A stretch of DNA of 64,000 nt from Labilibacter marinus. Lineage in GTDB: Bacteria; Bacteroidota; Bacteroidia; Bacteroidales; Marinilabiliaceae. Positions 42,139 to 52,209 of this stretch are shown here, in pieces. The translations under genes were made by a program, and so were the position numbers. The stretch spans positions 1-64,000 of the forward strand of contig NZ_LXYE02000006.1 in assembly GCF_001659685.2 (NCBI RefSeq), given 5' to 3'. Positions within the stretch are counted from its first letter, which is position 1; every line of letters begins with the position of its first letter. A model generated the notes under the pieces. The model saw only the letters and a program-made list of their open reading frames with translations, did no database searches and was not told the origin of the DNA.

Positions 42139-43275
42139 CTACTTTCTTACAAAATTTACAGGAATGGTTAATTTAGATTCCACAGGTTCTCCGTTGGTAA
42201 TTTTAGGTAGCCAATCCTTGGTTAGCTTAACTACTCTTAATGCCTCTTTATCTAATGATTCTTCTACTCCTCGTATGACAACATAGTCTTTAGTTTGTCC
42301 ATTTGAATCTATTGTGAAGGAGACGTAAACTTTACCTGATATGCCTTTGGAAAGTGCGCCAATTGGATAATTGAGATTCTGACCGATAAAGGACATTAAC
42401 TGGTAATCGCCATATTTGAAGCCAGCAGGGCGATTCTTTATTTCAACTTTTACCCCTGTTACAGTACTGAATATCGTTTCAACATCATTTTCGACTAAGG
42501 TCGTGGGAAAAGCTATTTCATCTAAAATAAATTTTTCCGCTTTTGTAAAATGACTATGGTTATTAAATGGTGACTTTGGTAAAAGGGCACTGGTTGGGAC
42601 TCCATAATCATTAGAAAACCCTGAATTATTTATTCCGCTTATGTATTTTCCTTTTCTGTATTGTTCACTATGAATAAGCTTTCCATCACTAATTCTAACA
42701 GCTTTCCATGTACCATGCATTACACTGTCTTTAAATGTACCATGTAATCTGCAGATACAATCATGGCTAAACAGGTTATACTTAACTGAATCAACCATCC
42801 ACTTTCCTGTTCCATTGCTTATTAATGGTTCTCCCGATTTGTCATAAAAATCAGTTACTACAAAATTATTATTAATATTTCCTTTTTTTATTAAGATAAC
42901 TTGCTTAAGCTGCCCAGACCAATAATAATACCGCCAAGTTCCAGTCATCCTATTATTTACAATTTCACCTTCTTTTTTTACTTGTCCGTTTTTATAATAC
43001 CATTTAAAATAACCGTTACGTTTGCCCTTAGTATATTCTCCTTCTCCTATTATGTTACCTTGAGTATCGGAATCTATTACCTTACCATCTAGTTTAAAGT
43101 TATTAAGGTCGTAACTTGCTTTACGTATGTAGCTTGCGAATTCGGGATTTGTAATTTCCCATTGGGCATTATAAAAAAGTTTAACTTCTTGTTGGCTAAA
43201 ACTCTTAATTGAAATAGCGATTAAGAAAAATAATAACAAGGTGTTTTTTGATTTAATAGGCGATAGGATAGTCAT
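42139..43275 (-). CDS. MORN-repeat protein with TonB C-terminal domain
   Basis: A 378-aa exported protein. The signal peptide is about 1-27 (ending KSFSQ). Residues 55-215 hold MORN/YwqK-like repeats of the form GxxKxYYxxGQxKxEG. The last 90 residues (about 285-378) are a TonB-type domain: YPIGALSKGISGKVYVSFTI, then KDYVVIRGVEESLDKEALRVV and PVNF. A cleavable signal replaces the usual membrane anchor of TonB, so it is unlikely to be a classic energy transducer. It lies beside a lipoprotein gene and the LytTR region. Confidence 0.85.
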   Translation of the reverse strand: MTILSPIKSKNTLLLFFLIAISIKSFSQQEVKLFYNAQWEITNPEFASYIRKASYDLNNFKLDGKVIDSDTQGNIIGEGEYTKGKRNGYFKWYYKNGQVKKEGEIVNNRMTGTWRYYYWSGQLKQVILIKKGNINNNFVVTDFYDKSGEPLISNGTGKWMVDSVKYNLFSHDCICRLHGTFKDSVMHGTWKAVRISDGKLIHSEQYRKGKYISGINNSGFSNDYGVPTSALLPKSPFNNHSHFTKAEKFILDEIAFPTTLVENDVETIFSTVTGVKVEIKNRPAGFKYGDYQLMSFIGQNLNYPIGALSKGISGKVYVSFTIDSNGQTKDYVVIRGVEESLDKEALRVVKLTKDWLPKITNGEPVESKLTIPVNFVRK

Positions 43276-44301: not shown

Positions 44302-45093
44302 TCACTTAACTGATGCACTTGTTAAGATTGATCCATTTAAACTCTCCTTCACACTTTTTTTATAGCTCCGTCCAATGTTTAACCTAACCGTATCAACAAC
44401 AATGCTGTCGGAAGAACATTCTTTAATTCTTTCAGTATTGATGATAAAAGAGCGGTGTATTCTTAAAAACATATCGGGTAAGCGGTTGGCCAGAGTGCTA
44501 ATTTTTTCCTTACTTTCTATAGTATCATTAACTGTAACAACCTTAATGTAATTGGAGGCACTTTCAATGTAAATAATGTCGTTGTAGGCTATTTTGGTCA
44601 TTTTACGCTTGCTCATTATTTCAAGAAACGATTTTTTCATTTTTTCTTTTTCCTCCAAAAGTTGTTGAATGACTTGTCGGTTTTCAGATATTTGACTCAT
44701 CATTAAGAGAAACGAACCTATTAATACTAGTAAATACAATACAACTGGCAAAAGCCCTATTTTAGCAGCATTAGGGTTTAGGTCGTTATAATTAAGGTTT
44801 ACCAGAAATATATACGAAAAAGTCAATACTAATACTTCGAGGTATACCGATACAACAGCCGTAGAAAAAGTATATAAAGCAAAACGTTTGTATCTTTTAG
44901 TGAGGTAATATTTTGGAACAAGGAAATAATTAAAAAAATAGGAGGTTCCTAAAACAATTGGGAGTAGCATACACACAAAGTAAAATGCTGCAGAACTATT
45001 TCCCCATGATAATGCAAATGCTCGACTTAAAACAAGTACGACAAAAATCCAATAAGCAATATGGTAAGCAGGTTTTTTTAAATATTTATTCAT
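44302..45093 (-). CDS. Membrane-tethered LytTR transcription factor
   Basis: A 263-aa protein with four N-terminal transmembrane helices (about 10-28, 34-56, 72-96 and 108-130), a short coiled coil (about 133-158, rich in Glu/Lys) and a LytTR DNA-binding domain from about 162 to 255. Signature segments are IIYIESASNYIKV, RIHRSFIIN and the final IGRSYKKSV. There is no receiver or kinase domain: the membrane part looks like that of LytS kinases joined directly to the DNA-binding domain. It is divergent from the ExbB-like gene at 45246, across 152 bp, and may control it. Confidence 0.88.
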   Translation of the reverse strand: MNKYLKKPAYHIAYWIFVVLVLSRAFALSWGNSSAAFYFVCMLLPIVLGTSYFFNYFLVPKYYLTKRYKRFALYTFSTAVVSVYLEVLVLTFSYIFLVNLNYNDLNPNAAKIGLLPVVLYLLVLIGSFLLMMSQISENRQVIQQLLEEKEKMKKSFLEIMSKRKMTKIAYNDIIYIESASNYIKVVTVNDTIESKEKISTLANRLPDMFLRIHRSFIINTERIKECSSDSIVVDTVRLNIGRSYKKSVKESLNGSILTSASVK

Positions 45094-45245
45094 TCTTTTC
45101 TACTATTTCTGTCTAATTTGGGCAAATATATTAAAATTACTAGCTAGAGGTGATAAATAACCATTTTAGAAGCGGATTCAACCTTGGTTTTTTCCCTCGT
45201 CACGCATACTTTGGCAGTAGTTTTAAACCATGAAAAAATGAATAT

Positions 45246-45647
45246 ATGCAAGAGCTATTTATCAAGGGAGGACTAGAGTTTATGGGCTTATTAACAATTT
45301 TGTTAGTAATAACGACTGCCTGGCTTATTTACTATTTTGTTGTTGCTTACATCTCTAAAAAAATAGATAAGGAAGTATGCCTACGTAAGCTTAGATATGG
45401 GAAAGACATAGGTTTATTCACTTTAACAATGGGAGTTTTTGGCAGTTTAATTGGGTTCATGTCCATGTTTGATATTATTGAAGATATAACTGCAAAAGGT
45501 ATAGAGATTACAGCTCAAAATGTATTTGGGGGAATAAAAGCTACTATGATCGTTATCATATACGGAATACTGATTTATTTATTCTCGCTCTTATTATGGT
45601 TTATATTCTCGCTATTGATAGAAAAAAAGATAGAGAAGCAGACTTAA
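45246..45647 (+). CDS. Small MotA/TolQ/ExbB-like membrane protein (copy A)
   Basis: A 133-aa protein with three transmembrane helices (about 12-38, 54-75 and 97-124). GVFGSLIGFMSMFDII (59-74) and VFGGIKATMIVIIYG (about 92-106) follow the MotA/TolQ/ExbB pattern of a Gly-rich third helix and a final helix with Thr. It is half the length of ExbB and lacks an adjacent ExbD. The protein at 49744 is a paralogue with shared LFxxGGxxFM, FDII and GGxK motifs. It is flanked by a divergent LytTR gene and a downstream S41 lipoprotein gene. Confidence 0.75.
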   Translation: MQELFIKGGLEFMGLLTILLVITTAWLIYYFVVAYISKKIDKEVCLRKLRYGKDIGLFTLTMGVFGSLIGFMSMFDIIEDITAKGIEITAQNVFGGIKATMIVIIYGILIYLFSLLLWFIFSLLIEKKIEKQT

Positions 45648-45691
45648 TACTTATCTATAATTCTTAAGACATTTTATTACAAATTTTGTCT

Positions 45692-45717
45692 TGACTGAAG
45701 CTATGGTTCATCAGTCA
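45692..45717. repeat. Inverted repeat TGACTGA / TCAGTCA
   Basis: A perfect 7-bp inverted repeat with a 12-nt loop, 45 bp after the ExbB-like gene, within a locally GC-richer patch (45697-45740). It could be a weak terminator or an operator. No T-run follows. Confidence 0.4.
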
Positions 45718-45929
45718 GCGTGGCGTAGCTATGTCTAATAATTTATTAAATAATTTTCTTTTAAACAGATATTTAATATCACTCCTCTAAAATTTAGGTT
45801 GCTTGCACTTGGCAAGAAGGGAAAGTGCAATTATACTCTTTTAAAGAATGAGAAGAAGGAAGTTTGATACCATCAATTACACGTATCGAAAGATAACAAG
45901 AACTTAATTTTAAAATCAAATTATACATT

Positions 45930-47273
45930 ATGAAACTCTTACTTATTACATTTCTAGGCGTATTTACACTACTATCTTGCTCTAAAAAAGCAAATGATTT
46001 TAGTTCAACGGCAACTATTACCACGGTTTTTCCCTTGCAGGCTTACCAGGAAGATTACAAACAAATGGTTGAGCTTTTGGTAGAGAAACATCCTAAACCT
46101 TATGCTTTTATTAGCGAAGATTCTTTAAGTATACTGATTGAGGATCAATACAATAAAATTAATGATTCAATAAGTTTAGGGCGTTTTATATGGATTTGCG
46201 AAAAAGTAGTAGCAGCCGTTCAATGTGGGCACTCTGCTGTTTGGACTGGTCAACTACAAAACCTTCCAAAAGCAATGCGTTTTCCGATGAATGTACGGTT
46301 CCATAAGGAAAAATTGTACATCATGGATGCTAAAACTAACGCGGATAAGCTGGAGGCTGGTGATGAAATACTAAGCATAAATGGTGTTGATATAGCTACA
46401 CTACAAAAGGCAATATTTACGCATCTGCCAAGTGAAGGATGCAATAGAGCCATTCAAGCAGAAATTGCCAATGATTTTTTCACGCAGTTTTGTGCCATGT
46501 ATTTTAATTTCCCCACCTCATTCACCGTTAAGGTAAAACATAAAGAAGAAATGGGAGAAATACATCTGGCACAGGCAACGGAATTTCATCCAACAAAAAC
46601 CTTTTTAGATAAGGGTGACAAGCCTCTTTGTTTTGATACCGATTTGGAAAACAGTACTACTACACTAACCATTCGTTCTTTTGAGTATTATAAAAAACAG
46701 CTTCCTATTTTTAAATCGTTTGTGGATAGTTGTTTTCAGAACATCCATGAAAATCAAATTCAAAACTTAATAATTGATGTAAGAGATAATGGTGGGGGCG
46801 ATCCTTTTTGTAGTTCTTATCTGCTGGGGTATATTGCCGATAAGCCTTATACTTATTTTGATAAGGATATAGCTTGGTGGTACCGTAAATTAAAAAAGCC
46901 TATTCAATCCAAGGCCAATAGATTTAAAAATAAACCATACATATTGGTAAATGGAAAGTGTTTGTCAACCACTGGTCATTTTTGCTCTTTGGTTAAAGAA
47001 AACGATTGGGGAATTATTGTGGGCGAAGAAACGGGAGCTACGTATACTTGTAACGATTTTAGTAAATTCTATAACTTCGACAATACAAACGCATTTTTAC
47101 GAGTTGCCACACGAGAGGTTAAAACCACTGTTACTAGTTTAAGCAACAAAAAAGGCATTATTCCCGATCATCATGTGACAACTAATATCCAACATTATTT
47201 AAGTAACATAGATACCGTATTAAATTACACGCTAAACCTAATAGAAGAAAAGCAACTGATATCTAAAAATTAG
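45930..47273 (+). CDS. S41-family peptidase, lipid-anchored
   Basis: A 447-aa lipoprotein (MKLLLITFLGVFTLLSC, lipobox Cys17). A helical segment with QCGHSAVW near residue 95 and a short PDZ-like stretch (AGDEILSINGVDI, near 145) precede the tail-specific-protease core. The core has LIIDVRDNGGGDPF near 290 and the Ser-containing CLSTTGHF at 344-351 with Ser346 as candidate nucleophile, then GEETGATYT. The usual GxxSAS reads CLSTTG here, as in other S41 lipoproteins. It follows the ExbB-like gene of copy A by 282 bp in the same orientation. Confidence 0.85.
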   Translation: MKLLLITFLGVFTLLSCSKKANDFSSTATITTVFPLQAYQEDYKQMVELLVEKHPKPYAFISEDSLSILIEDQYNKINDSISLGRFIWICEKVVAAVQCGHSAVWTGQLQNLPKAMRFPMNVRFHKEKLYIMDAKTNADKLEAGDEILSINGVDIATLQKAIFTHLPSEGCNRAIQAEIANDFFTQFCAMYFNFPTSFTVKVKHKEEMGEIHLAQATEFHPTKTFLDKGDKPLCFDTDLENSTTTLTIRSFEYYKKQLPIFKSFVDSCFQNIHENQIQNLIIDVRDNGGGDPFCSSYLLGYIADKPYTYFDKDIAWWYRKLKKPIQSKANRFKNKPYILVNGKCLSTTGHFCSLVKENDWGIIVGEETGATYTCNDFSKFYNFDNTNAFLRVATREVKTTVTSLSNKKGIIPDHHVTTNIQHYLSNIDTVLNYTLNLIEEKQLISKN

Positions 47274-47300
47274 CTTTAGTGTAGAGTTAAAACGAAATTT

Positions 47301-47349
47301 AAAAGAGGCTTTTGTAAAGTTAAAAATGCCTTCTTCAGTAGCCTCTTTT
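47301..47349. terminator. Terminator of the S41 lipoprotein gene
   Basis: A 10-bp perfect stem (AAAAGAGGCT / AGCCTCTTTT) with a 29-nt loop and a T-run on the plus strand. It may also stop the leftward LytTR transcript ending at 47444. Confidence 0.75.
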
Positions 47350-47443
47350 TTATTACTGCTAAAGCCAACTCAACCAATAAATAGCACTTGTTTGCCTATT
47401 TAGAACCACCATTTGTTTTAAATTATACGATACTATAAAGTGT

Positions 47444-48145
47444 TTATGGTTTATCCAGATGGTTTAATACATGCTCTTTGTAATTTCTACCAATAGTAAA
47501 TTGCCGGTCATCCAGCATAATATACGATGATGTGTAATGGTCAATTTTGTTGATATTAATAATGAAAGAACGGTGGATACGTTGAAATAACTGTGGTGGT
47601 AATTCTTTTTCAATGCTCGATAAGGAATCGTAACAAATAAGGCTATTTGTCGTCGTTTTAATTTTAATGTAGTTATCCAGACCTTCAATATAAAGTATGG
47701 TTTCTGTGGCAATTTTATAATTCTTTTTATCCGCCTTAATATGAATAAACTCTTTTGGTTTTTGAAACTGAGTCTGTTTCATTGCCAGAAATTTATTTAT
47801 CGTTTTTAAAAATCTGCCGGTAGAAATAGGCTTTACAAGATAATCGAGGGCGTCCAGTTCAAAAGCTTCAACAGCAAACTCTCTGTAGGCAGTTGTAAAA
47901 ATTACGTAAGGCTTAACTGCCAATGCTTTTAAAAATTCAATTCCATCTATAGAAGGCATATTGATATCTAAAAATAAAATATCGACACTTCCATTATTTA
48001 AAGTCGTTATTGCCTCCATTGGCTTGGTATATGATCCTATACATTCTAACTGATTAGCGAAATTTTCCAGGTGTTCCTGAATCACTTTTATCGCTAACGG
48101 TTCATCGTCAATTATGATGCATTTATATTTTACTTTTCCGGACAT
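47444..48145 (-). CDS. LytTR-family response regulator
   Basis: A 233-aa two-component regulator. The receiver domain (about 7-125) has IIDDEP (11-16), the phospho-acceptor Asp60 in LFLDINMP and the conserved Lys in DYLVKPI. The LytTR DNA-binding domain (about 140-230) shows ILYIEGLDNYIKI, QRIHRSFIINI and FTIGRNYKE. Its start codon shares a base with the stop codon of the sensor kinase (TAATG), so the two are co-translated. Confidence 0.94.
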   Translation of the reverse strand: MSGKVKYKCIIIDDEPLAIKVIQEHLENFANQLECIGSYTKPMEAITTLNNGSVDILFLDINMPSIDGIEFLKALAVKPYVIFTTAYREFAVEAFELDALDYLVKPISTGRFLKTINKFLAMKQTQFQKPKEFIHIKADKKNYKIATETILYIEGLDNYIKIKTTTNSLICYDSLSSIEKELPPQLFQRIHRSFIININKIDHYTSSYIMLDDRQFTIGRNYKEHVLNHLDKP

Positions 48146-49212
48146 TACCTTAAAATTTTTAGTTTGGCTTCAAAAAACTTATCGCCTGATGATATTTGTA
48201 ATTCCTGATGATTTTGGTACACTAATTCTAATCTTTCACGAACGTTTTTTAAGCCCAGGCCTTTACTTTTCTTGATTTCAATTCCATTAATAATACTGTG
48301 AACACTGTTTTTTACACTGAATATAATTAAGGATGTGGTAATCTCTAATTCTATATTAATAAAATCATTGTCAGCTTGTTTTAACCCGTGCTTAAAGGCA
48401 TTTTCAACAAAAGGGAATAATACCAAAGGAGCAATTTTTATCTCGTCCTTATCTTCAGGGAAATCAAAGCTGACATTAAAACTTTCGTCGTGTCTAATTC
48501 TTTCCAGTTCAATGTAATTATTGATGAATTGTATTTCATTTTTTAATTCTACCCGTTCTGTATTGCATTCGTAAAGCATATACTCCAGTAATTCGGATAA
48601 ACGAACAATTACCTCCCTCGAAAGCGCAGTGCTCTCATTAACTAAGGCATAAAGGTTGTTCATCATATTAAAAATAAAATGTGGATGAATTTGCTCTTTA
48701 AGCAATTGTAGTTGAACTTCTTTGAATTTTAATTCGAGTATATTTTTTTCTTTCTCAATAATTAATTTTTCCTCTTTCGATTGAAAAGATTCTTTCGTAA
48801 AATAAAAAACAGAGGACAGCAGCGCTATTAAATAGGTGCCTGTCAGGAGAATAATAACATCTTCGAAAGAAGGTAAAATGATATTTGTAAAGGCTACATT
48901 GCTGTAAAAAGTGATTAAAAAGAGCGCAATGCTAATAAGCCATAAGGATATAATAAATAGAGTAAAGAGTAGGTACATAAACAACACTCTTTTGCCCTTA
49001 AATAAAAACCTAGGAATTAAAACTTTATTGGTAATCCTTGCATTGGCAAAACTAATCAGCAAGAGTAAAATAGATACATTAGTACGAATTTGAATATCGT
49101 AATGCCTGTTACTGAAAACAAAAAACATGAATAATGATGCTAGCGACCAATAAATGATTTCCCAATATGGAAATTCTTTTATATTAGATTTTATGTTTTT
49201 GTTGATAGTCAT
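48145..49212 (-). CDS. LytS-type sensor histidine kinase
   Basis: A 355-aa inner-membrane kinase. I use the ATG at 49212; the frame also begins at a TTG 9 bp earlier. Four transmembrane helices fall at about 18-34, 44-60, 76-104 and 118-138, then a coiled coil, then the His_kinase domain with KEQIHPHFIFNMMNNLYAL (His178 is the likely phosphosite). The N-box is FVENAFKHGLK and the G-box GLGLKNVRERL. There is no large sensory domain, so the signal is probably membrane-borne. Confidence 0.93.
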   Translation of the reverse strand: MTINKNIKSNIKEFPYWEIIYWSLASLFMFFVFSNRHYDIQIRTNVSILLLLISFANARITNKVLIPRFLFKGKRVLFMYLLFTLFIISLWLISIALFLITFYSNVAFTNIILPSFEDVIILLTGTYLIALLSSVFYFTKESFQSKEEKLIIEKEKNILELKFKEVQLQLLKEQIHPHFIFNMMNNLYALVNESTALSREVIVRLSELLEYMLYECNTERVELKNEIQFINNYIELERIRHDESFNVSFDFPEDKDEIKIAPLVLFPFVENAFKHGLKQADNDFINIELEITTSLIIFSVKNSVHSIINGIEIKKSKGLGLKNVRERLELVYQNHQELQISSGDKFFEAKLKILR

Positions 49213-49261
49213 AAGAAACAAATTCCAATCAAGGGGGTGAACTACTTTTGTAAATGCCTAA

Positions 49262-49433
49262 TACTTCAGGGATTTCATCCCTAAAACCCTGACTTCATTT
49301 TTTGTCTTGATACAAAAAACGCAAGCAAAAAAAATCAAGACTGCGCCTAGCTCACTATTAAAACTACGCTTCTTTAGTCTAAATCGCTAAAACTCGAACC
49401 TTCCTATGTCAGGCTCTCAAACAAATCGCAATT
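49262..49433 (-). repeat. Interspersed intergenic repeat, copy 1
   Basis: About 170 bp with a second, inverted copy at 53611-53773. On the minus strand it runs from AATTGCGATTTGTTTGAG to GATGAAATCCCTGA. Internal structures are an 8-bp inverted repeat GTCTTGAT (49304-49311) / ATCAAGAC (49334-49341) with a 22-nt loop, and a hairpin AGGGAT-TTC-ATCCCT (49268-49282). The last 33 bp agree with copy 2 at 31 positions. There is no transposase and no coding potential. Confidence 0.7.
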
Positions 49434-49743
49434 TTACGACTAAACAATCTTGTTTTAATGCTCACCAGACGATGTCATGGCGGTGACAAACCGGCAATAC
49501 GAAATATTTAATAGCTTACACTTTGAATCGATTAACAAATATAGAACGAAATTAGCTTTGTTATTACATCGGCAGTCTATTTTATGTCAACAACACGAAA
49601 CACACCCTGAATAACTAAAATGCTATTTATTGTTTTAAATTTGTTGTTGAGGATGCCATTTGCGTTGTTTCCATAATTCATTCTTATAGCTTGTCATGAA
49701 TCTTTACTATTGTTCTATCGTTAATTTCTAAAAACTTAATATT
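49434..49743. other. Intergenic region upstream of ExbB-like copy B
   Basis: About 310 bp between the repeat and the gene at 49744. GGCAGT followed within a few bases by TTTTA occurs near 49570, as it also does near 45208 upstream of copy A, which might reflect a shared regulatory site. No TAnnTTTG box is evident. Nothing else is supported. Confidence 0.4.
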
Positions 49744-50172
49744 ATGAATATGTTTCATGACGGTATAGCCAGTTTAACTAGACTTTTTTATGAAGGTGGC
49801 CCAGCTTTTATGGCCCTTGTTTACCTTTTGTGGTTAACAGTCATTGTCTTAGCTGTACGCTTTGTTATTTTGTACCGCTCTAATAAAAATCCTCAAAAAC
49901 TTAAAAAGACAAACGAAAGCATTCTGTTTTTTGGCAGTCTGGCATTTTTGATTGGTATAAGCGGACAAATGGTTGGCCTTATAGCCGCTTTTGACATTAT
50001 TCAAAGTAAGGGAAGTGAAAGCATTAATCCGAACTATCTCGCTGGTGGTTTAAAAGTTAGTTTTATAGTACCATTCTTCGGCATGGTACTTCTTATCCTA
50101 TCAGCCATCCTTTGGTTTGTATTCCGAAATATGAAAAAATACCCTTCTCAAAACGGAGCTATAAATCAGTAA
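49744..50172 (+). CDS. Small MotA/TolQ/ExbB-like membrane protein (copy B)
   Basis: A 142-aa protein with three transmembrane helices (about 20-44, 60-83 and 104-128). FLIGISGQMVGLIAAFDII (about 67-85) and LAGGLKVSFIVPFFG (about 97-111) follow the MotA/TolQ/ExbB pattern. It is a paralogue of the 133-aa protein at 45246, with the same helix spacing and shared LFxxGGxxFM, FDII, GGxK and LWFxF. No ExbD-like partner is adjacent. It is divergent from the LytS/LytTR pair and followed by a lipid-anchored amidohydrolase. Confidence 0.75.
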   Translation: MNMFHDGIASLTRLFYEGGPAFMALVYLLWLTVIVLAVRFVILYRSNKNPQKLKKTNESILFFGSLAFLIGISGQMVGLIAAFDIIQSKGSESINPNYLAGGLKVSFIVPFFGMVLLILSAILWFVFRNMKKYPSQNGAINQ

Positions 50173-50457
50173 GATTACTGACTATAATAAATCAGTTGTA
50201 ACTATTCAGTAGTAAGACAAAAGTATAAAGACAAAAGACAAGAGTTTATTCATTGATACTTATAATTATTAAGTTCTGAATTATTCTTATTGTTAAACTA
50301 GTTTAAAGAATATAGCACCTTTTTTTATCATTGTTTACCATAAACTAGAATGTATGAAAATTGTAAAATGCTCACATTTTTATGCTTGTGTCTTTATTCT
50401 TTATGCTGAACAGTAACAATCAGTTTACTTTTACACTCCTCACTAACTACACTAATT

Positions 50458-52209
50458 ATGAATATAATATTTAGAATAATAAAAGCTGCTGAACTATCTT
50501 GTTTGGCCATTATGCTCCTCTTTTCATCCTGCAATAAATCTGCAGAAAATGTCACCACCGTTTTTAAGGATGTAAATGTTATAACTATGTTTAATGATTC
50601 CATTTTACATGGTCATTCCGTATTAGTAAAGGATGGCAAAATTGCAGCTATTGGGATTTTTGAGGAAATGACCATTCCAGAAAATACCCATATAATAGAA
50701 GGAAAAGAACAATATCTGATACCTGGATTATGCGATATGCATGTGCACTATAACAACGAAAATGATAGGATATTGTATGTGGCTAACGGAGTAACTTTTG
50801 TTAGAAATATGTTTGGAGCTCCAAGTCATTTGAAACTTCGAAAAAAAATAAAGGAAAAGCGTTTAATTGGACCTGAGTTGTATACTACCAGCCCAATTAT
50901 TGATGGTGTAAAGCCTTACTGGCCCGGATCATATGTTATCGGAGATAAAGCCCAGGTATTTGATGCTTTATCTCAAATGAAAAAGGATGGTTATGATGCT
51001 ATTAAAGTGTATTGGAAACTGTCAAAGGAAGTATATGATGAAATTATCAGGGTAGCCAATGAGCTCGACATGTCAGTTGTGGGGCATGTTCCTAAAGCTA
51101 TTGATATCAAGCATGTATTATCTTCAGGGCAAAGCTCCATTGAGCACTTGGATGGGTATGAAAAGTATTATGCTGATGAGCAGATTATAACACAAACACT
51201 AAAAAGTGGTACTTGGAACTGTCCTACCTTAGTGGTGCTGAAAAATTTAGGAATGATGGATTCCTTAAAACACAATCCTCCCAGTGAGATTAAATATGCC
51301 TCTCCGGATGCAGTTGCATGGTGGAAAAGTGGTAGACCTTATGATGCACATTTTGTACAAAAAACCAAATTACTTAAAACTTTAGCAGATAACAATGCCA
51401 ATATTGTTGTAGGAACAGATGCCAGTAATCCATATATCATTGCAGGTTTTAGTCTGCACGAAGAATTGGTAATTTGGCAAGATGCTGGTATAACACCGTA
51501 TCAAATTCTTTTGTCTGCAACAAGAAAGTGTGCTGAAATGGTAGGCTATGAATCAAGGTTAGGAACTGTTGAAAAAGGAAAGGATGCTGATTTGTTATTA
51601 CTGAAGAAGAACCCTCTTGAAGATATTAATAACACCAAATCTATAGCTGGCGTAATGACAAAAGGGACTTGGTACCCTAAGGCAGAGTTAAAGTTAATGT
51701 TAGATGAAGTGGCTGCTAAAAATGCCAAAGGCATGCAGAGGTTAACTATTCGCAATAGTCATTTCATAAAAGTACTGGTACTATTTATGTTTTTGTCTTT
51801 CTTAAGTACTTTTATAATACGACCCGTATTATTTGCTTTCAATAAGGGCAAATTAGCGTCTTTAAAAAGTGCTGACAGTAGCATTAAAAAGTACCGTATC
51901 CGCTTGTTGGTAATTTTAGTAAGTACAATAAGTTTAGTTCTTGTGCTGTTGTTGTTTACCTTGCCCGAATCCGTATTTCAAAGTGGTATTTCAACCTTAT
52001 TTATAACTGATTTATTGACGCAGACTAAAGTATTAATGCCGTTTGTCATTTTAATAATCTTGATAGCACTATCGATCATCTTTTCCATTTTATGGGTAAG
52101 AAATAATTTATCGTCGTTTAGAAAATGGCATACCTTATCAGTTATTATTGCATCAATAATCTTACTCGTTTTATTAAAATATTGGGGATTATTAAAATTG
52201 TATTATTAG
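50458..52209 (+). CDS. Lipid-anchored amidohydrolase with C-terminal membrane domain
   Basis: A 583-aa lipoprotein (lipobox LLFSSC, Cys25). Residues 32-430 are an imidazolonepropionase-like amidohydrolase. The metal site is HVH (95-97) in PGLCDMHVHY. Other candidate ligands are Lys in DAIKVYWK (about 178), His in VVGHVPK (about 205), His in SIEHLDG (about 228) and Asp in VVGTDAS (about 320). The tail GTVEKGKDADLLLLKKNP is typical. The last 140 residues contain four transmembrane helices, which is not usual for this family. It lies 285 bp after ExbB-like copy B. The substrate is unknown; relatives act on dipeptides, prolidase-type substrates or cyclic amides. Confidence 0.85.
   Translation: MNIIFRIIKAAELSCLAIMLLFSSCNKSAENVTTVFKDVNVITMFNDSILHGHSVLVKDGKIAAIGIFEEMTIPENTHIIEGKEQYLIPGLCDMHVHYNNENDRILYVANGVTFVRNMFGAPSHLKLRKKIKEKRLIGPELYTTSPIIDGVKPYWPGSYVIGDKAQVFDALSQMKKDGYDAIKVYWKLSKEVYDEIIRVANELDMSVVGHVPKAIDIKHVLSSGQSSIEHLDGYEKYYADEQIITQTLKSGTWNCPTLVVLKNLGMMDSLKHNPPSEIKYASPDAVAWWKSGRPYDAHFVQKTKLLKTLADNNANIVVGTDASNPYIIAGFSLHEELVIWQDAGITPYQILLSATRKCAEMVGYESRLGTVEKGKDADLLLLKKNPLEDINNTKSIAGVMTKGTWYPKAELKLMLDEVAAKNAKGMQRLTIRNSHFIKVLVLFMFLSFLSTFIIRPVLFAFNKGKLASLKSADSSIKKYRIRLLVILVSTISLVLVLLLFTLPESVFQSGISTLFITDLLTQTKVLMPFVILIILIALSIIFSILWVRNNLSSFRKWHTLSVIIASIILLVLLKYWGLLKLYY

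Follow-up and report, generated by a model that had tools for sequence, protein, structure and literature searches.

Two neighboring gene clusters of the same unusual layout lie in a 64,000-nucleotide stretch of the Labilibacter marinus genome (positions 1 to 64,000 of contig NZ_LXYE02000006.1; hereafter the window), and they raise the question of what joins a LytTR-type regulator to a very short relative of the ExbB/TolQ/MotA membrane proteins. In both clusters, a leftward regulator faces a rightward gene for the small membrane protein, behind which lies an enzyme gene. An earlier reading made from the letters alone (the sequence-only reading) had taken these parts for one envelope module, in which a LytTR factor controls the membrane protein together with an anchored hydrolase. 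Here, the divergently encoded protein of 105-145 aa with an ExbB/TolQ core is named sExb. Our analysis favors, with a probability of roughly 0.6, an intramembrane-sensing LytTR switch that mainly targets its own partner in the membrane, sExb, in a feedback loop.

A LytTR-coupled sensor and a divergent sExb gene form the core unit

The sExb profile was searched in 61 relatives, in 395 genomes of the phylum and in 393 of the order, and the surrounding DNA was fetched; two loci from the first search among relatives (L074 and L075) were excluded, as by eye they belong to another small membrane family. The first set comprised 91 sExb genes, 6 of them at contig edges, leaving 85 that could be scored. 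A divergent histidine kinase (HK) with its response regulator, or a fused sensor-LytTR protein, was found within three genes of sExb at 76 of the 85 and directly adjacent at 69. A separate scan of named genomes yielded 80 loci, 69 of them new, and a divergent LytTR gene accompanied sExb at 64 of the 66 new non-edge loci. This linkage was not built into the searches, since LytTR sequences were absent from the queries, although linked loci had supplied the majority of the sExb seeds. Where sExb was hidden by the open reading frame (ORF) caller or broken (L145, L160, L194, and L065), a LytTR or HK gene still adjoins it. Cultivable environmental species such as Carboxylicivirga linearis and Reichenbachiella faecimaris are among the carriers (loci L222 and L289). 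The L. marinus genome itself holds four sExb genes besides the two in the window, six in total: C1 and C7 have a divergent fused sensor-LytTR protein, C40 has a divergent kinase with a LytTR regulator, and C28 has no LytTR neighbor. A divergent LytTR or HK regulator at five of six copies is far beyond chance, because only 26 LytTR matches exist genome-wide. These results demonstrate that a sensor of four transmembrane helices (4-TM) coupled to LytTR, either by fusion or through a kinase and response regulator, forms a core unit with a divergent sExb gene, and the recurrent pairing of a LytTR factor with a short ExbB-like protein that the sequence-only reading had proposed is confirmed by these counts.

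Both forms of the regulator are present in the window. Copy A has a one-component regulator of 263 aa (44302..45093, minus strand), in which the 4-TM sensor spans approximately residues 8-153 and the LytTR domain residues 164-252 (LytTR 1.5e-18 in Pfam; sensor match 9.5e-51); it faces sExb A (45246..45647, plus strand), a minimal ExbB/TolQ-type membrane protein of 133 aa. In copy B, the minus strand carries a REC-LytTR response regulator (47444..48145; Response_reg 3e-20, LytTR 1.8e-18) and a LytS-type histidine kinase (48145..49221; His_kinase 1.2e-20) with the same 4-TM sensor as in A (sensor match 7.5e-40), and the likewise minimal sExb B, of 142 aa, is encoded on the plus strand at 49744..50172. 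The genes listed earlier for both cassettes lie where they had been placed, and the regulators do differ in type; for copy B the REC-LytTR protein, sExb, and the amidohydrolase had been recognized and the kinase had been overlooked. The two small membrane proteins, described as paralogous, are indeed homologous (32% identity, BLASTP 6e-15). A recent tandem duplication of A and B was ruled out, as sExb, sensor, and regulator type are all strongly different.

The N-terminal 4-TM sensor belongs to no Pfam family and is common to the fused and the kinase regulators. In an AlphaFold2 (AF2) model of the copy A regulator, it consists of four helices (residues 8-30, 33-63, 68-99, and 109-153) joined by short loops and has no extracellular domain, as in intramembrane-sensing systems, and the LytTR domain has an AgrA-like fold. 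Within the L. marinus genome, the sensor matches below 1e-30 were exactly the five adjoining sExb (next best 0.009), and a model of the fused-type sensor found no match in 20 LytTR loci of this genome that are unlinked to sExb. Order-wide, 42 sensor matches exceeded 110 bits among the 393 genomes; 40 of them adjoin sExb, and the remaining two start close to the end of a contig, on the flank expected to carry sExb. Between 92 and 100 bits, two matches (G480 and G469) face a divergent sExb, two (G621 and G522) lack one, and all others are at the end of a contig; the weaker matches that were fetched are kinases without sExb. These results demonstrate that the close sensor subfamily is confined to sExb loci. 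The tree distances of sExb correlated with those of the sensor at rho 0.59 and with those of the DNA-binding domain at 0.42, which would favor a sensor-sExb relation and supports it short of proof, because common descent is still contained in the correlation.

Some loci show variations on this layout. Two tandem sExb genes lie behind one kinase-regulator pair at L070:4823-5581, and at L150:4189-7366 two sExb genes flank a permease-like gene (795 aa), again behind one pair. A stop codon interrupts sExb in a relative (L065:5124-5357), and the kinase and LytTR regulator beside it are intact. At L330:4915-5298 and L331:3688-4071, kinases of the same sensor type are faced by a highly divergent subfamily of sExb (43-48 bits), and the profile probably misses part of the family. 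Three loci (L176:3715-5407, L182:4983-6708, and L197:4960-6702) have a GntR-type regulator, an SPFH/Band_7 gene, and sExb in one direction without LytTR; Pfam confirms GntR and Band_7 for L176, and the arrangement at L197 stands directly after a LytTR-linked sExb. At L156:4940-6458, sExb follows the genes for a PadR regulator and for a membrane protein of 257 aa that belongs to no Pfam family, which suggests that sExb also teams with other envelope-type regulators.

A putative LytTR operator at the sExb promoter

In the fused subtype, a putative 37-bp operator adjoins the sExb promoter; its half-sites are 21 bp apart, and the -33 TTG stands at its end. In hold-out tests with a matrix made from half of the loci, 10 of 12 and 11 of 13 loci outscored all but 0-3 of about 250,000 sequence windows, and four failed. 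Across 63 loci outside the final matrix, two cytosines 21 bp apart were invariant and the element ended in TTG, and in 60 of these 63 a TAnnTTTG box (at least five of six positions) followed 20-21 bp after the TTG. A distance of some 60 bp typically separates the end of the element from the sExb start downstream of it, and loci of the second set had no operator match above 18 bits at any other position. LytTR proteins are known to use direct repeats of 9-11 bp with 11-13 bp spacing upstream of the -35 element (PMC6193735), and flavobacterial sigma-A promoters have TAnnTTTG as their -7 box (PMC9723704); the half-site spacing agrees with the former and the box with the sigma-A promoters of Bacteroidota.

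At copy A, the predicted operator lies at 45150..45186 on the plus strand (38.1 bits with the position weight matrix), with AAC at 45159-45161 and 45180-45182, 21 bp apart, and the -33 TTG at 45184-45186; the -7 element of the sExb A promoter, read from the sequence as TACTTTG, follows 20 bp after the TTG at 45207..45213. The operator pattern has no mismatch here, the best in the genome, and with up to two mismatches it occurs in the 6-Mb genome only at the A promoter, at the C7 sExb, at the C1 locus, and at one coding-region site. This coding-region match, on C10 within a gene read as mreC, was taken as chance. A related element is present at HK-type loci. For copy B, we placed a tentative operator by eye at 49592..49615 on the plus strand (AAC at 49592-49594 and 49613-49615, again 21 bp apart); TAAATTTG follows at 49636-49643, and the site resembles intergenic regions of relatives. 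Since a LytTR-type operator sits before the short ExbB gene, we can well infer LytTR control of sExb from these sequences, and the sequence-only reading, which had placed the hydrolase under the same control, stands for sExb and falls for the hydrolase as a constant part.

A minimal ExbB/TolQ core and its optional hydrolases

The relation of sExb to the MotA/TolQ/ExbB proteins, also recognized earlier, is supported by several comparisons. The Pfam score of the MotA_ExbB family was 27.7 bits for sExb B, above the cut-off of 22.9, and 22.8 bits for sExb A, just below it, and the sExb profile matched TolQ (4e-6), MotA (2e-4), and ExbB (8e-4) in the PDB. Compared with the genome's own long ExbB, sExb retains the TM2-TM3 core and the GGxxFM with which the first helix begins, and the large cytoplasmic domain is missing. 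The AF2 model of the monomer shows three long helices (pLDDT 88); in a Foldseek search with this model, TolQ and ExbB chains were among the first, none of them significant (E 0.24 or worse). Among 159 sExb proteins, the position of the TM2 pore threonine is Gln in 124, Arg in 18, and Thr in 3, and that of the TM3 pore threonine is Thr in 96 and Pro in 44; a loss of both pore threonines, considered at one point, was dropped, as the consistent replacement concerns TM2 alone. The earlier remark that copies A and B have no ExbD/TolR partner extends to all loci, as none of the sExb loci fetched contains an ExbD-like gene (a separate search for MotB-like genes was not made). A motor-like proton path in sExb thus appears doubtful, because the TM2 threonine is replaced by Gln or Arg in 142 of 159 proteins and ExbD is absent. 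An ordinary long ExbB gene is present on C1 of the same genome (L028:3519-5857), with a gene for a small membrane protein and two ExbD-like genes behind it, in contrast to sExb.

The enzyme genes behave differently from the regulators. At 159 distinct loci, the gene after sExb ran in the same direction in 69 and was convergent in 81, and in the other 9 the contig ended before it; the co-directional genes were of diverse families, mostly unrelated or housekeeping. Only PF00144 recurred, in 11 of the 60 co-directional next genes scanned; by position on the same strand, it was found at 11 of 69 genes at +1, at 2 of 62 at +2, and 3 times at all others combined. The L. marinus genome has seven PF00144 matches in six genes, two of which directly follow an sExb. 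A strict and universal cassette of LytTR, sExb, and hydrolase is ruled out by these downstream-gene counts, and with it the anchored hydrolase as a constant part; a hydrolase after sExb is real but optional, lineage-dependent, and mainly of PF00144, which we retain as an optional extension. Random neighbors had been named as the result that would overturn the module, and the neighbors are largely random for hydrolases in general and not for LytTR.

In the window, this optional cargo consists of an S41 peptidase lipoprotein behind sExb A (45930..47273, plus strand; Peptidase_S41 5.7e-15) and an amidohydrolase with a lipoprotein-like start and a multi-TM C-terminal tail behind sExb B (50458..52209, plus strand; Amidohydro_1 6.9e-23). 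An operator scan found no second operator in the 282-bp gap between sExb A and the S41 gene. At C1, a weaker operator site precedes sExb, and a further copy lies between sExb and the PF00144 gene (L024:5951-5987; 49.1 bits, the top of the first set); this second operator makes it probable that the C1 hydrolase is expressed from a LytTR-controlled promoter of its own. The operator is followed by a roughly 200-base leader in which a ACACATGAAACGA-like element is repeated. A TM tail common to amidohydrolase B and the C1 PF00144 protein was not supported (BLASTP E 0.36). Upstream of cassette A, the minus strand of the window encodes a protein that combines a MORN_2-like repeat with a C-terminal TonB domain (42139-43275), and an ORF resembling it occurs near the C1 cassette (L024:162-617).

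The proposed switch, its rivals, and known systems

We propose that the four-helix sensor, with hardly any periplasmic portion, is either fused to the LytTR domain or signals by way of it, and that the triggered regulator would bind the two direct half-sites 21 bp apart adjoining the -33 element and activate sExb. The sExb protein, which is an ExbB/TolQ membrane core lacking both the large cytoplasmic domain and an ExbD partner, would be a dedicated partner of the sensor; it probably oligomerizes beside the sensor and may set its off state or report the state of the membrane or ion gradient, closing a feedback loop comparable to that of LiaF on LiaS or of LRS membrane proteins on their LytTR regulators (both discussed below). 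In some lineages, an exported hydrolase, mostly of PF00144, would be attached behind sExb as an extra output. The very short inter-helix loops of the sensor support this mechanism, as they are found in intramembrane-sensing kinases that cooperate with a membrane partner (PMC7191749). What we infer is that sExb is activated and not repressed and that it touches the sensor, together with the sign of the feedback and the stimulus. Several points weigh against the switch: the 20 unlinked control loci all come from one genome, the sExb-sensor tree correlation includes shared ancestry, the HK-type operator is less uniform and that of copy B tentative, and a few sExb genes stand under GntR with SPFH or under PadR, so that the 4-TM sensor is not always the partner of sExb. 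A wider version of the proposal, which we consider less likely than not, is that the ExbB/TolQ/MotA membrane fold, so far known from the rings of ion-driven motors, has been reused phylum-wide as a stand-alone signaling protein, a minimal ring that would sense the ion gradient or membrane state and directly gate the four-helix LytTR sensor.

The same genes could be arranged for a simpler purpose, with a LytTR system that detects membrane or gradient damage and an sExb that conducts ions or stabilizes the membrane as a plain effector, without acting on the sensor. The operator layout marks sExb as the target, and both its ExbB/TolQ homology and the TM3 threonine retained in 96 of 159 proteins would suit such an effector, but the altered TM2 position and the lack of ExbD speak against a motor-like proton path, and an effector has no need to be tied to one sensor subfamily; we regard this explanation as unlikely. 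A version of the original idea, in which the short ExbB-like protein energizes or anchors a membrane-bound hydrolase under LytTR control, draws on a co-directional enzyme gene behind all six copies in this genome, on the enrichment of PF00144 at +1, and on the one hydrolase with its own operator copy. However, the next gene is convergent at 81 of 150 scorable sExb genes, most co-directional neighbors are not hydrolases, and one of the six enzymes is a phosphatidylserine decarboxylase, likely an unrelated neighbor, and we find this idea quite improbable. A reduced anti-phage system related to Zorya was considered on account of weak PADLOC matches to ZorA, which has a MotA-type core (best 1.5e-5), and was rejected as very unlikely: the match is limited to the shared core, no cassette gene matches ZorB or a Zorya effector, and the conserved partner is a regulator. 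Coincidence between a large LytTR family, with its 26 matches here, and a gene-rich strand pattern has almost no probability left, being already refuted by a linkage that holds in hundreds of genomes, in both directions, and with a shared operator.

Separate annotation as a LytTR regulator and a MotA/TolQ/ExbB protein hides a single unit. For many uncharacterized Bacteroidota LytTR systems, the pairing predicts both a target and a binding site, and for an orphan ExbB-type family it points to a likely non-motor role. Gating of the sensor by sExb, if true, would put the ExbB/TolQ fold to a new use and offer a tractable route to the stimuli of such membrane sensors; with its exact operator and single neighboring target, the proposal is readily testable.

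Literature searches, which covered open-licence papers, found no description of a LytTR-ExbB pairing, and several known systems share parts of it. The TM core of sExb is homologous to ExbB, TolQ, MotA, and GldL, the outer subunits of 5:2 rotary motors (PMC9389320), from which it differs in the missing cytoplasmic domain, in the TM2 pore threonine, kept in 3 of 159, and in having no ExbD-like inner-dimer partner gene nearby. Zorya ZorA likewise has a MotA-type membrane core, but sExb has neither the long ZorA tail nor the accompanying ZorB and effectors. The E. coli LytS/LytTR systems BtsSR-btsT and YpdAB-yhjX have essentially one membrane-protein target each. They resemble the sExb unit, which also appears to have one such target, and differ in their sensors and in that their targets are transporters. 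LiaFSR likewise combines a sensor having very short extracellular loops with a dedicated membrane protein in the same context (PMC7191749); LiaF is not ExbB-type, whereas sExb has an ExbB/TolQ core, LiaS and LiaR are not LytS and LytTR proteins, and the inhibition shown there is proposed here by analogy.

The closest resemblance is to the LytTR regulatory systems (LRS), such as HdrRM and BrsRM of Streptococcus mutans and the LRS-like operons of Bacteroides (PMC6193735). These likewise combine a LytTR regulator and a small membrane protein as separate proteins; their direct repeats, spaced by about two helical turns, lie immediately upstream of a promoter, and the Bacteroides examples also have membrane-embedded LytTR regulators. 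Known LRS, however, are co-directional operons with the repeats before the regulator's own operon, whereas the linked sExb loci are divergent and their half-sites, with the invariant cytosines 21 bp apart, adjoin the -33 TTG of the sExb promoter and not that of the regulator. The Bacteroides membrane protein is of the NfeD/DUF2154 type in place of an ExbB/TolQ core, and many sExb loci use a kinase and response regulator. Since its divergent layout falls outside the operon definition and its partner family differs, the sExb-LytTR unit is not a member of the LRS, which are its nearest known kind.

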